In this document: piece by piece, positions 34,378-41,371 of the stretch | How the letters are laid out: every line of letters begins with the position of its first letter | Position numbering within the stretch: the first letter of the stretch is position 1 | NCBI GenBank assembly: GCA_030681675.1 | Contig: JAUXRP010000007.1 | Span: forward strand, 1-52,712 | Source: Candidatus Planktophila sp. | GTDB taxonomy: Bacteria; Actinomycetota; Actinomycetes; Nanopelagicales; Nanopelagicaceae | Length of the DNA stretch: 52,712 nucleotides | Direction: 5' to 3' | Notes under the pieces: generated by a model | What the model saw: the letters and a program-made list of their open reading frames with translations, nothing else | Databases searched by the model: none | What the model was told of the DNA's origin: nothing | Position numbers and translations under genes: made by a program

Positions 34378-36357
34378 GTGGCTGTATCTAGTGCGCTCAA
34401 AAACAAGGCAGGCAAGAAACCGGTAGCAAAAAAAGCACCCGTTAAAAAAGTAGTGGCGAAAAAAACTGCACCGGTAAAAAAAGTGGTGGCAAAAAAAGCA
34501 CCAGTTAAAAAAGTAGTGGCGAAAAAACCCCCTATAAAAAAGACCGGAGCGAAGAAAGCAGCTCCAGTTAAAAAAATAGTTAAGCCTGTAAAGATAGAGT
34601 TGAAAAAGGATTTAAATATCAAAGATGTTCAAGCGATTGTCGATGCGAAAAATGCAGTAATTCGGCACAATGAAATTCTGGCCGAACTCGAAATGCGCGG
34701 CATCACATCTATCAACCGTATTCCTAAAAAGATTGATAAAGAATTAGTAGATGAAGCTCGAGCCTTAGCCGTTTCACTTCCAGTAATGATTGAAAAGCTC
34801 CGAAAATCTGGACTTGGCTCACCCTCTCGTATTCTAAAAAAATCTGATTATGCATTGATCGAACCGAAGCCCGTAGTTGAAAAAATTACACCAGAAAAAA
34901 TCGTACTTCCAAAAATAGCAATTGTTACGATTGACGGCGAAGAAGTTGAACTTGAAGAAGTTGAACTCGAGGATGATGAAAAGCTTATCGCCGATGCAGT
35001 CGATGTTGTTGATCTTGAGACTGAAGATAAAGTCCGTGTAGTAACGCTTTCTGATGAATCTAGTAAGGCGAAAGGTTCATTTACATTAGCTGATTCAGAG
35101 GCTGATGATGAAGAAGAAGATAAGAATGAGCGTGAGAAGTTAAAGAAAGATTTAAGAAACATCAATATTGTTATTGAAGCGATTAATTCAAAAAACAATT
35201 CAGTCAGCGCCCCCACACGTTATGGTATTAGCGAAGCAGAATCAAGGGCTTTGACGTACAAGCAGATTCAACAGCAGTTTGAAATGAAGACTTTTACTGA
35301 AAGATCTGCAAAGACTGTAGCAGAAGCAGTAACTATCGGTTCGCTCAAGAATCTTGAGGATCTACTTAATTATTTCATCGAAAAGATGAAGGCCGTGCAG
35401 CGAGAAATTAAGTATCTTCCACCTGAGCAAACGGTAATGACCGCCGGTGCAACTGCCGACCCAGTCAAGGATTACTTAAAGCAAATTGGTCGCGTGGCAC
35501 TTCTAAACGCCGAGCTCGAAGTTGAGTTGGCAACTCGTGTTGAAGTCGGCCTATTCGCCGAATCAAAGTTAAAAAATGAAAAGAAGTTGGACAAGAAATT
35601 AAAGCGCGAGCTCGAATGGTTGGTAGAAGATGGCAAGCGCGCTAAGAACCACTTACTAGAGGCAAACCTTCGATTGGTTGTTTCCCTTGCTAAGCGCTAC
35701 ACAGGTCGAGGAATGCTCTTCCTTGATCTGATTCAAGAGGGAAACTTAGGCTTAATCCGTGCTGTAGAAAAATTCGACTACACAAAGGGTTATAAGTTTT
35801 CAACGTATGCAACGTGGTGGATTCGCCAGGCGATTACACGTGCGATGGCCGATCAGGCCCGCACAATCCGTATCCCGGTACACATGGTTGAAGTTATTAA
35901 TAAGTTGGCACGTGTGCAGCGCCAGATGTTGCAGGATTTAGGTCGCGAACCGACTCCAGAAGAACTCGCAAAAGAGCTCGATATGACCCCTGAGAAAGTC
36001 GTTGAAGTCCAAAAGTACGGCCGCGAACCGATCTCACTTCACACTCCACTTGGTGAAGAAGGCGATAGCGAGTTCGGCGATCTCATTGAAGACTCTGAAG
36101 CTGTTGTTCCTGCTGATGCGGTCTCATTTACTCTGCTTCAAGAGCAGTTGCACTCTGTTCTAGATACTCTATCTGAGCGTGAGGCCGGTGTTGTTGCAAT
36201 GCGCTTTGGTCTAACCGATGGTCAGCCAAAGACTTTGGATGAGATTGGAAAGGTATATGGCGTCACTCGCGAACGTATACGTCAGATTGAATCTAAGACA
36301 ATGTCGAAACTTCGTCACCCATCACGCAGCCAAGTGCTGCGCGATTACTTAGATTAA
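34378..36357 (+). CDS. sigA: RNA polymerase principal sigma factor (RpoD/HrdB/SigA)
   Basis: Directs RNA polymerase to housekeeping promoters. 659 residues, longer than the usual 450-530. Residues about 10-70 are a Lys/Ala/Pro/Val repeat ([12 protein letters not shown] in three near copies). An acidic middle follows ([28 protein letters not shown]). Conserved part: region 1.2 [11 protein letters not shown], 2.1-2.4 [17 protein letters not shown] ... [16 protein letters not shown], region 3 [18 protein letters not shown], and 4.2 [20 protein letters not shown]. Start is GTG 34378 with AAAGGAC (34366-34372); the ATG at 34376 is out of frame. A CDGSH gene starts one base after its stop. Confidence 0.97.
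34420..34540 (+). repeat. Direct repeats inside the sigma factor N-terminus
   Basis: About three near-identical ~33-36-bp units built of GTTAAAAAAGTAGTGGCGAA (first at 34441) with runs of 6-7 A, coding for [12 protein letters not shown]-type peptides. Poly-A runs and repeats make this segment prone to slippage and length change. Confidence 0.75.
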
Positions 36358-39033: not shown

Positions 39034-39071
39034 TACAGAGCCTTAAAGCAGGGATGTTATACGATCAATCC

Positions 39072-39518
39072 ATGAGGAAACTCTCAAAATCACCCAATAG
39101 CGTTTTACTTGTTGCAGGATTAATTTTGGCGTTATTAGCCACTATATCCCTTGCGATTTCCAGCAATCCAGAGAAGAACTTCACCGAGGGAAGTCCTGAG
39201 GCAACGGTGCAGCTCTATTTAGATGCAATCATCAAGGGCGATAACGATCTTGCCTTAACTTTTCTCGATCCCAATAACTCCTGTGAATCCGCAGACTTAG
39301 ATCGCGCATATATTCATGATTCCTACAGAGTGAATCTCATTAGTAGCGTGATTTCAGGTACGAGTGCAACTGTAAAAATAGATGTGGAGTATGCCTCTTC
39401 AATGCCCTTTGATCCGAGTTATTCAAATCCACAAACTATGAGATTAGAAAAGATTTCCTCGAAATGGTTGCTTACGGGAATACCTTGGCCACTTTACGAC
39501 TGCGGACCACCCAAATGA
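39072..39518 (+). CDS. Membrane-anchored extracytoplasmic protein, function unknown
   Basis: 148 residues. One N-terminal membrane segment (SVLLVAGLILALLATISLAI), then an extracytoplasmic domain resembling small lumazine-binding/NTF2-like folds (SPEATVQLYLDAIIKGDNDLAL; KWLLTGIPWPLYDCG). ATG 39072 is chosen; TACGAT (39060-39065) lies 6 bp before, a likely leaderless -10. ATGA overlap with the next gene shows that the two are one unit. Confidence 0.65.
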   Translation: MRKLSKSPNSVLLVAGLILALLATISLAISSNPEKNFTEGSPEATVQLYLDAIIKGDNDLALTFLDPNNSCESADLDRAYIHDSYRVNLISSVISGTSATVKIDVEYASSMPFDPSYSNPQTMRLEKISSKWLLTGIPWPLYDCGPPK

Positions 39519-41371
39519 GGATTTTCGGAATCTTTGGTTACCTCTTTGTCTTTGTCTTAATTTTTCTAGCAGTTAAACGTGTATTTTCCAATGACGGTGT
39601 TGCGACAAATAGGGGAGACCAAGTCCGTCGCTTCTTCCAATTTGGCCTTCTATTTGCCTTAGTTGTGATTTCAGCGACCGGCGTATCTGGAATCATTAGT
39701 CGAATTATTGGATTTAGCAACGAAATCGTTTCTAGCCAAAGCGCCCTTGCAAGAGATACTTCATTTTCATTAGTTGGCCTCCCGCTCCTCTTCCTTGTGG
39801 CGAGATGGGTTCGAAAGAGTGTTGCTGAAAATAAATTAGAGATTAAGACTTTTGGCTGGAATATATATTTTGTTGCGATTTCAATAGTGAGTTTAATTGT
39901 GACTATGATCGCTGCAAATGCAGTTCTCACTTGGCTAGTTGCCGCTGAAAACTTCAACTCCGGCTCTGTTGCACGATTCATTGTGTGGATGCCAGTTTGG
40001 TTTTTGCATTATCGACTGCATACCCATCTCATTTTTGGTCCTGATCTCACTAATACTTTGATAATCGGTTCAGTCATTGGTTTAGTAACTGTTGTAACCG
40101 GTGCGATTGAGACGCTTCAGAATCTTATTAATCTCATATTTGGAAGTGAAAAAACCTTTTTGTTATTTGAATCTTCGCATCCGCTCATGGAAGGATTTAT
40201 TACCTTTTTGATTGGCGCAACCGTCTGGTATCTATATTGGCTAAGAATTACCATTAAATCGGAGCGAAATACGCTCTGGTATGCCTATGTACTGCTTGCT
40301 GGAACCGGTGGCGGAATAGTAATGATGATCGTTTCAGCAAGCTTTACTCTCTACCAGAGTTTAATTTGGTTTATTGGTGATACAAAAAATGAATCAGCTT
40401 CCTCCTTCTTTAACGATCTACCCGGCACAGTTGCAGCATTTGCCGTTGGGTTGGTTCTTTGGTGGTACCACAAGGAGGTTTTGGAAAGTAAAAAATCCGG
40501 TGAAAGTGATGAAGTTCGGCGTATCTACCAATACCTCATGGCTGGAGTCAGCCTCATTGCAGCGGCCGCCGGTATTTCTATGATTTTAATTTCAGTTTTG
40601 GAGAAATTTTCAGCCAAGTCTGTAATTTATGGAGCTGGCTCAATTAATACATTGATTGGTGCCCTCACTCTCATTATTGTGGGCGCGCCTATTTGGTGGA
40701 TTTATTGGAACAAAATCGAGGGGCAGTTAGTTGCTCATCCAAGCGATGAGTATGCTTCGCCAACACGCCGCTTCTACCTCTTCCTCCTCTTTGGTGTTAG
40801 TGGCGTAGTCGCCGTTGTGATGTTATTAATCGGCGTCGCAATCTTCTTCGAAGCTGTGTTTCAATCGAATTTAGGTTCTGAAACGATTAGAAAATCTAGA
40901 ACTGCTGTTTCTCTACTAATTACGACTGCAGGTATATCGTGGTATCACTGGCTCATTTACCGGAATGAGAAAAAATACTCTGTTGCAAAAATGACACCAG
41001 TGGCCAGTCATCATTACCCAGCGATCGATTGCGAAAAACCTATCGCGTTAGCTCAGTTTTATGCCGCCCTTACTGGCTACTCTGCTCAACTTTTAAAAGA
41101 TGTTAGGCCAGAAGTTGAGTGGGTAGATTTATTTCATAATGGAAAGCGCATGATGGGATTTCAAAAGATCGATAATTACCGACGACCAACCTGGCCAACG
41201 GGGGAAGTGCCTCAGCAAATGCATCTAGATTTCGAGGTTCCTGATTTAGATGAAGGCGAGAGGCGAGTAATCGCACTTGGCGCAAGTAAAGCGGAGTACC
41301 AACCAGGAGAGAGTTTTCGCGTCTATCTCGACCCCGAGGGCCATCCATTTTGCTTGGTGATGAGCTCCTAG
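39515..41371 (+). CDS. Multi-pass DUF5671 membrane protein fused to a VOC (glyoxalase-like) domain
   Basis: 618 residues. About six repeat units of roughly 70-80 residues fill residues 1-485, each with 2-3 hydrophobic segments and most ending in a W-rich turn (VWYLYWLR, LVLWWYHKEV, APIWWIYWNK, ISWYHWLIYRN). The last 125 residues (from about 492) form a VOC/glyoxalase-like half: HHYPAIDCEKPIALAQFYAALTG ... QMHLDFEVPD ... VYLDPEGHPFCLV. The ATG at 39515 overlaps the previous stop (ATGA). A membrane DUF5671 array joined to a cytosolic VOC domain is unusual. I infer a membrane sensor, binding protein or enzyme; no function is known. Confidence 0.75.
   Translation: MRIFGIFGYLFVFVLIFLAVKRVFSNDGVATNRGDQVRRFFQFGLLFALVVISATGVSGIISRIIGFSNEIVSSQSALARDTSFSLVGLPLLFLVARWVRKSVAENKLEIKTFGWNIYFVAISIVSLIVTMIAANAVLTWLVAAENFNSGSVARFIVWMPVWFLHYRLHTHLIFGPDLTNTLIIGSVIGLVTVVTGAIETLQNLINLIFGSEKTFLLFESSHPLMEGFITFLIGATVWYLYWLRITIKSERNTLWYAYVLLAGTGGGIVMMIVSASFTLYQSLIWFIGDTKNESASSFFNDLPGTVAAFAVGLVLWWYHKEVLESKKSGESDEVRRIYQYLMAGVSLIAAAAGISMILISVLEKFSAKSVIYGAGSINTLIGALTLIIVGAPIWWIYWNKIEGQLVAHPSDEYASPTRRFYLFLLFGVSGVVAVVMLLIGVAIFFEAVFQSNLGSETIRKSRTAVSLLITTAGISWYHWLIYRNEKKYSVAKMTPVASHHYPAIDCEKPIALAQFYAALTGYSAQLLKDVRPEVEWVDLFHNGKRMMGFQKIDNYRRPTWPTGEVPQQMHLDFEVPDLDEGERRVIALGASKAEYQPGESFRVYLDPEGHPFCLVMSS

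Follow-up and report, generated by a model that had tools for sequence, protein, structure and literature searches.

A strongly linked gene pair of Actinomycetota encoding a DUF5671 membrane core with an exchangeable tail and a small membrane-anchored partner

The gene pair P0001-P0002, located in a stretch of 52,712 nucleotides from Candidatus Planktophila sp. that was analysed as a whole (the window), represents a strongly linked two-gene unit of Actinomycetota, in which a conserved 13-helix membrane core bears an exchangeable cytoplasmic tail. The fusion of this membrane array to a VOC domain, which the initial annotation had put forward as the unit, is a rare variant found in two of 61 C-termini, the usual tail being another domain; the fusion is thus the visible tip of a conserved system and not an isolated oddity. 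With regard to its function, it is proposed here that the pair might form an envelope system whose core acts together with the outer partner and whose inner tail serves as a control module. We assign a probability of roughly 45% to this statement as a whole, and the anatomy alone, i.e., a core, a linked outer partner and an interchangeable inner tail, is very likely. The features of the pair in the window are as follows.

39054 to 39518, plus strand: P0001, single-TM protein of 154 aa, probably with an NTF2-like extracytoplasmic domain (ORF list; profile matches)
39096 to 39158, plus strand: TM helix of P0001, about residues 15-35 (sequence; one hydrophobic stretch in the sister copy L063)
39189 to 39509, plus strand: outer domain of P0001, in which C77, C150 and a WPLYxC end are conserved (alignments, profile matches)
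39515 to 39518, plus strand: ATGA overlap, the start of P0002 lying inside the stop of P0001 (sequence)
39515 to 41371, plus strand: P0002, 13-TM DUF5671 protein of 618 aa with a C-terminal VOC domain (Pfam, AF2 model)
39521 to 39586, plus strand: extra N-terminal TM helix of P0002, residues 3-24 (AF2, low confidence, block pLDDT 56-69)
39629 to 40000, plus strand: DUF5671 copy 1, hairpins 1 and 2, residues 33-173 (Pfam, AF2, profile comparison)
40067 to 40453, plus strand: DUF5671 copy 2, hairpins 3 and 4, residues 174-326 (Pfam, AF2, profile comparison)
40520 to 40924, plus strand: DUF5671 copy 3, hairpins 5 and 6, residues 329-492 (Pfam, AF2, profile comparison)
40997 to 41368, plus strand: Glyoxalase_6 / VOC domain, residues 495-618, placed in the cytoplasm by the positive-inside rule (Pfam, fold search)

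P0002 is encoded by one uninterrupted reading frame of 618 aa (39515-41371, plus strand), and its ATG shares the four letters ATGA at 39515-39518 with the stop codon of P0001, just as the initial annotation had described; the alignment of starts also bears out its choice of 39072 for P0001, with which the N-termini of the relatives agree better than with 39054. Both parts of the fusion that it had recognised in this frame exceed their Pfam cut-offs. DUF5671 (PF18920) reaches 124.5 bits in three stretches of P0002 as compared to a curated cut-off of 28.4, which disposes of the possibility that the repeats might not be DUF5671 by profile, and in a profile search of the genome all three copies individually lie above the cut-off. 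In the AF2 model of P0002 (mean pLDDT 88.9, pTM 0.80, from a 75-row alignment), an N-terminal helix whose placement is weak is followed by twelve long helices, which form six hairpins, two per DUF5671 copy, and then by an alpha/beta domain set apart from them. Therefore, of the six DUF5671 repeats originally described, the six related hairpins are real, but they amount to three copies of DUF5671. When the three copies were compared with each other by profile, the probabilities came to 97.2, 97.6 and 98.2, with scores of 67, 74 and 86. For each pair, 20 controls were run in which one copy had its columns shuffled in blocks of ten, and these scored no more than 31.6, 30.4 and 24.1. At the level of single hairpins, the best of the 15 possible pairs were 3-5, 1-5, 2-4, 3-4 and 5-6 (probability 94-98), and the pairs 1-4, 1-6, 2-5 and 3-6 stayed below 40.

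The orientation of the core was deduced from the lysine and arginine content of the loops, as delimited by the helix ends of the model. Over the 61 rows of the family, the inner-side loops carry on average 4.1, 3.6, 2.3, 2.6, 4.3 and 3.8 of these residues and the outer-side loops 2.0, 1.0, 1.5, 0.7, 0.5 and 1.3; in P0002 alone the signal is weaker (inner 4, 4, 1, 3, 5 and 2; outer 2, 1, 1, 1, 2 and 2). According to the positive-inside rule, this charge bias implies a topology, well supported on the basis of the model, with the N-terminus outside and the W-rich hairpin ends as well as the C-terminal domain inside. The W-rich turns pointed out at the outset are indeed conserved at these inner ends (W158/W162, W238/W242 and W394/W398), as are R336, R418 and others in the 61 rows. 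A histidine is likewise found at inner helix ends, at H165 in 55, at H319 in 60 and at H478 in all of the 61 rows.

Both models were compared with known structures; the list for the P0002 model was filled by VOC matches, and the second search returned no Foldseek match to the DUF5671 core at E ≤ 0.001, a lack that does not equal a new fold. The best VIA match of the core (Z 8.8) covers a single repeat and lies at a level usual for helical bundles, and the PDB sequence profile search brought up no chains other than those of ATP synthase c-rings (E 0.39 or worse), which were taken as chance. Among 18 cores compared with NCBIfam, three show a weak similarity to the 'AFWIR motif membrane protein' (best E 0.0011), the core from the window not being one of them. 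In the literature searched, from which subscription journals were largely absent, no paper on DUF5671 or PF18920 was found, nor, in agreement with the initial annotation, a described system containing the pair.

P0001 has one TM helix and on its own matches no Pfam family. Its outer domain is probably NTF2-like, as suggested by weak profile matches. P0001 and 14 relatives all match the NCBIfam model Rv0361_Cterm (15 of 15 at E ≤ 0.1, best E 1.5e-9), but P0001 scores only 19 bits with the Rv0361 family NF051431 and so stays under the curated cut-off of 37. Weak profile matches were obtained to Pfam families which we take to belong to the NTF2 clan, each by one or two of the 15 P0001-like members, and the best match to NTF2-like PDB chains (E 0.0028) is weak, with an alignment that includes the TM stretch. 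C77, C150 and a WPLYxC-like end are conserved in the aligned relatives, and the conservation of the two cysteines would fit an outer domain with a disulfide. In M. tuberculosis, Rv0361 has been reported from the cell surface as well as from the membrane fraction (PMC2891697).

In 56 of the 61 non-redundant relatives, the gene directly upstream of the core, in the same orientation, is a homolog of P0001, as detected with a profile built from 15 rows (P0001 and 14 loci) that are themselves not independent of this count. In 55 of these 56 loci it is found within -4 to +64 nt of the start of the DUF5671 profile; in the remaining one, L139, the spacing reads 238 because its frame is broken. Two of the relatives without a partner, L075 and L122, have their core located at a contig end. 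In the other three (L067, L077 and L120) no contig end accounts for the absence, and tblastn with six partner proteins gave nothing better than E 0.022. The pair is thus conserved as such, and probably its two products form a complex. What stands of the membrane-spanning system suggested at the outset is an outer P0001 domain and an inner VOC domain, the latter placed by the positive-inside rule; what does not stand is the DUF5671-VOC fusion as its defining unit.

The set of 61 comprises sequences with a profile score of at least 380, copies with identical first 200 residues having been dropped; L095, L096, L097, L098, L099, L102, L146 and L149 had lower scores and were left out. Relatives were sought in 121 and 296 genomes of the family, of which 42 and 23, respectively, gave a hit of any kind with E ≤ 0.001; in many of the 42 this lay in the VOC part only, and in 22 of the 23 it covered most of the core, with one only at 447-566. 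Of 396 genomes of the phylum searched with the Pfam model, 55 had a match and 25 exceeded the cut-off; of 394 genomes of the class, 15 had a match, several of these short and weak, and none of them entered the set of 61. In GTDB contigs, a scan gave 72 stretches with 48 relatives at 47 loci. A mobile or viral origin was rejected, as none of 46 pattern matches in viral contigs was a relative and, among the 20 listed of 37 matching plasmid records, matches were confined to the VOC part and covered no more than 22% of the query. A role in anti-phage defence received no support, PADLOC having yielded no family at E ≤ 1 for P0001, P0002 and the relative L107, although such an absence does not exclude it.

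Between positions 34378 and 44621 of the window, the pair is preceded by sigA and parE and followed by genes for an ABC-F-like protein and a topoisomerase subunit A, all of which are names that we presume from the Pfam domains. As sigA adjoins the pair also in L086, L136, L142 and L145, with parE downstream in L142 and L145, the location of the pair would be an old one, and inheritance in situ is the simplest reading of its place. No neighbours of the sigA/parE type were seen in the stretches taken from genomes G584, G646 and G687, that from G584 ending about 0.8 kb past the partner gene. Among the 25 largest clusters of neighbours listed for 48 loci, genes for ABC-type ATPases recur in 7, for UPF0176/rhodanese-like proteins (presumably so named) in 6, sigA in 5, CorA-like genes in 4 and parE in 3, in a survey in which frames are noisy in GC-rich loci and neighbours recur lineage-wise only. 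With a maximum of 7 of the 48 loci sharing any one gene, none of these clusters is a common neighbour that would name a pathway.

The variable part of the unit is the C-terminus of the core. Of the 61 rows examined, which consist of P0002 and 60 relatives without L139, 55 carry the usual tail, as judged with a profile built from 29 of them, two a VOC domain (P0002 and L063), two an ABM domain (L105 and L106) and two no tail (L077 and L138), and it is this distribution from which a conserved core with an exchangeable tail follows. The usual tail has about 75 residues and an alpha/beta structure, with the order beta-alpha-beta-alpha-beta-beta in the model of L107 (mean pLDDT 89.9, pTM 0.83), and no trustworthy Pfam or PDB profile match was obtained for it. 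Its only nearly invariant residues are two hydrophobic ones (L12 and V32 in first-row numbering), which argues against a catalytic role of the usual tail and slightly against a strict ligand-binding role. The ABM tails (PF03992) score 42.7 and 61.0 bits as compared to a cut-off of 23.1; their carriers share the core and the partner gene with P0001-P0002, but the tail is of a family different from VOC, and the core tree places them in a clade of their own, separate from the VOC pair. The ABM-tailed cores are located as follows.

L105:4224-5993: ABM-tailed core, partner gene present
L106:4962-6740: ABM-tailed core, partner gene present

The cores of L077 and L138 stop straight after the last helix.

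Within the genus of the window, the four genomes with the array contain three types of tail, VOC in G000 (the genome of the window) and G109, the usual tail in G584 and ABM in G646. We infer that the loci L107, L106, L105 and L103 correspond to G584, G646, G687 and G109, respectively. In the tree of the 61 cores, the VOC pair and the ABM pair are two fully supported clades on a poorly resolved backbone; constraining the carriers of both to a single clade is not rejected (p-AU 0.368). By parsimony, at least four changes of tail are needed.

As for the fused domain itself, Glyoxalase_6 (PF18029) is matched with 73.3 bits in the whole of P0002 and with 78.3 bits by the domain alone (cut-off 23.6). 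By fold, the modelled residues 495-618 are predicted to belong to the VOC superfamily, in which beta-alpha-beta-beta-beta modules are paired, with Z 10.0-11.8 over 102-131 residues and an rmsd of mostly 2.8-3.9 for the 50 matches listed, which include glyoxalases, FosA and similar enzymes and binding proteins. The tail resembles this family in sequence and in fold, but it is fused to a 13-helix membrane core and lacks the usual metal triad. Metal ligands of the glyoxalase I type are His/Gln, His/Glu and Glu at standard places. When these were inspected, by sequence only and with the positions presumed from this scheme, the usual triad proved not to be kept: the central His (H76 of the domain) alone is invariant in the subfamily, the N-terminal ligand position is variable, and the place of the C-terminal Glu is occupied by Cys119 in all 17 VOC rows. 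Since the triad is not kept, the domain is more likely to bind a ligand than to turn one over with a metal.

The close VOC subfamily (E < 1e-50) was found in 20 of 135 genomes of the genus, in 18 of them as a separate frame of 129-152 aa; in G000 and G109 it occurs only inside the fused frame, both being draft genomes (G000 98% complete) in which a separate copy may have been missed. A further 15 of the 135 genomes have a distant VOC match only, and G000 and G109 also carry one distant copy each, that of G000 being a second, stand-alone Glyoxalase_6 gene (L183, G000:C15:45949-46296). Counted on 15 stand-alone relatives alone, with the fused copies excluded, 34 columns are invariant, 33 of which are kept by the fused VOC. 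A comparison of the two fused copies with each other (Nei-Gojobori, own script) gave a dN/dS of 0.10 in the VOC domain, with 0.18 in the core and 0.22 in P0001, the value for VOC being based on 14 nucleotide differences in 124 codons (10 synonymous, 4 nonsynonymous); the fused VOC thus looks to be under purifying selection. A different association of such genes, that of glyoxalase_2 genes with nearby heliorhodopsins, is described in a published report (PMC8612252), and this is not a pair of the P0001-P0002 type.

In the proposed system, the P0001-type protein and the DUF5671 core would associate in the membrane, and the core, with its conserved R, E, H and W residues at the inner helix ends, would be the working part, capped by the outer domain or using it for recruitment. 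The tail might act as a control module in the cytoplasm, changing the activity of the core through the binding of a small molecule or through oligomerisation. In the lineage of the window, a VOC domain from a subfamily kept elsewhere in the genus as a separate gene would have taken the place of the usual alpha/beta tail. Several observations speak against this proposal, namely the three members without an outer partner (L067, L077 and L120) and the two without a tail (L077 and L138), the absence of a shared neighbour naming a pathway, the poor conservation of the usual tail at single sites, and the weaker positive-inside signal in P0002 alone than in the family. The core may be a channel, a carrier or a sensor, no confident fold match pointing to one of these. 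A more specific model, in which the core would be a membrane fold absent from the PDB with pseudo-threefold order (conserved H165, H319 and H478 at the inner ends of the even hairpins) that forms a pathway or gate, with an NTF2-like cap outside and control by interchangeable small-molecule-binding tails inside, is regarded as improbable.

VOC and ABM domains usually form dimers, and the tail could therefore be a module for oligomerisation or stability only, for which VOC and ABM substitute by pairing two cores. The occupation of one slot by two small alpha/beta domains from different families, together with the low conservation of individual sites in the usual tail, would be in line with this explanation, which we nevertheless consider somewhat unlikely given that the fused VOC keeps 33 of the 34 invariant columns, seemingly more than pairing would need, and that two members lack any tail. 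It is also conceivable that the VOC domain is a membrane-tethered enzyme converting a product delivered by the core, e.g., an electrophile, with the ABM tails acting likewise on another compound. The similarity of its fold to glyoxalases, FosA and similar enzymes or binding proteins (Z 10.0-11.8 in the matches listed), the low dN/dS and the retention of the subfamily-invariant columns argue for such an enzyme; the variable N-terminal His and the Cys at the place of the C-terminal Glu in 17 of 17 rows argue against it, as does the fact that neither Pfam nor PDB profiles gave a trustworthy match for the usual tail, and on balance this explanation is unlikely.

Confined as it is to two genomes of one genus, the fusion might also be an accidental in-frame event of no functional weight. 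This is quite improbable in view of the dN/dS of 0.10 for VOC, even if derived from only 10 synonymous and 4 nonsynonymous differences, and of the lack of a separate close-subfamily copy in either genome as compared to the 18 of 135 genomes of the genus with a separate gene. An error of assembly or binning joining two genes, at first sight suggested by the 46-contig draft state of the window genome, has a negligible probability and was rejected: the search for other DUF5671-VOC fusions retrieved one sister copy in a second, separate assembly (G109) with the identical architecture, 97% identity over all 618 residues and the same neighbours.

The exchange of the usual tail for a VOC domain in one freshwater lineage provides a natural experiment on the role of the tail. 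VOC and ABM families often bind small molecules, and identifying the ligands of these two tails might show what it is that the core and the usual tail respond to. A conserved two-gene membrane unit of Actinomycetota, for which no paper was found under the family name, thereby gains an experimental handle.

DUF5671 proteins with three copies, as in P0002, recur across Actinomycetota, but the family also occurs as single-copy proteins encoded by adjacent gene pairs. In three genomes of one other family, two adjacent genes with one DUF5671 match each are present (L096:2838-3941, L097:5706-6855 and L098:5434-6587), which are possibly a split counterpart of the fused array. Finally, in G128 (L099:5319-6586) a core is scattered over several frames downstream of an intact-looking partner gene, representing either a decayed copy or a sequencing error.
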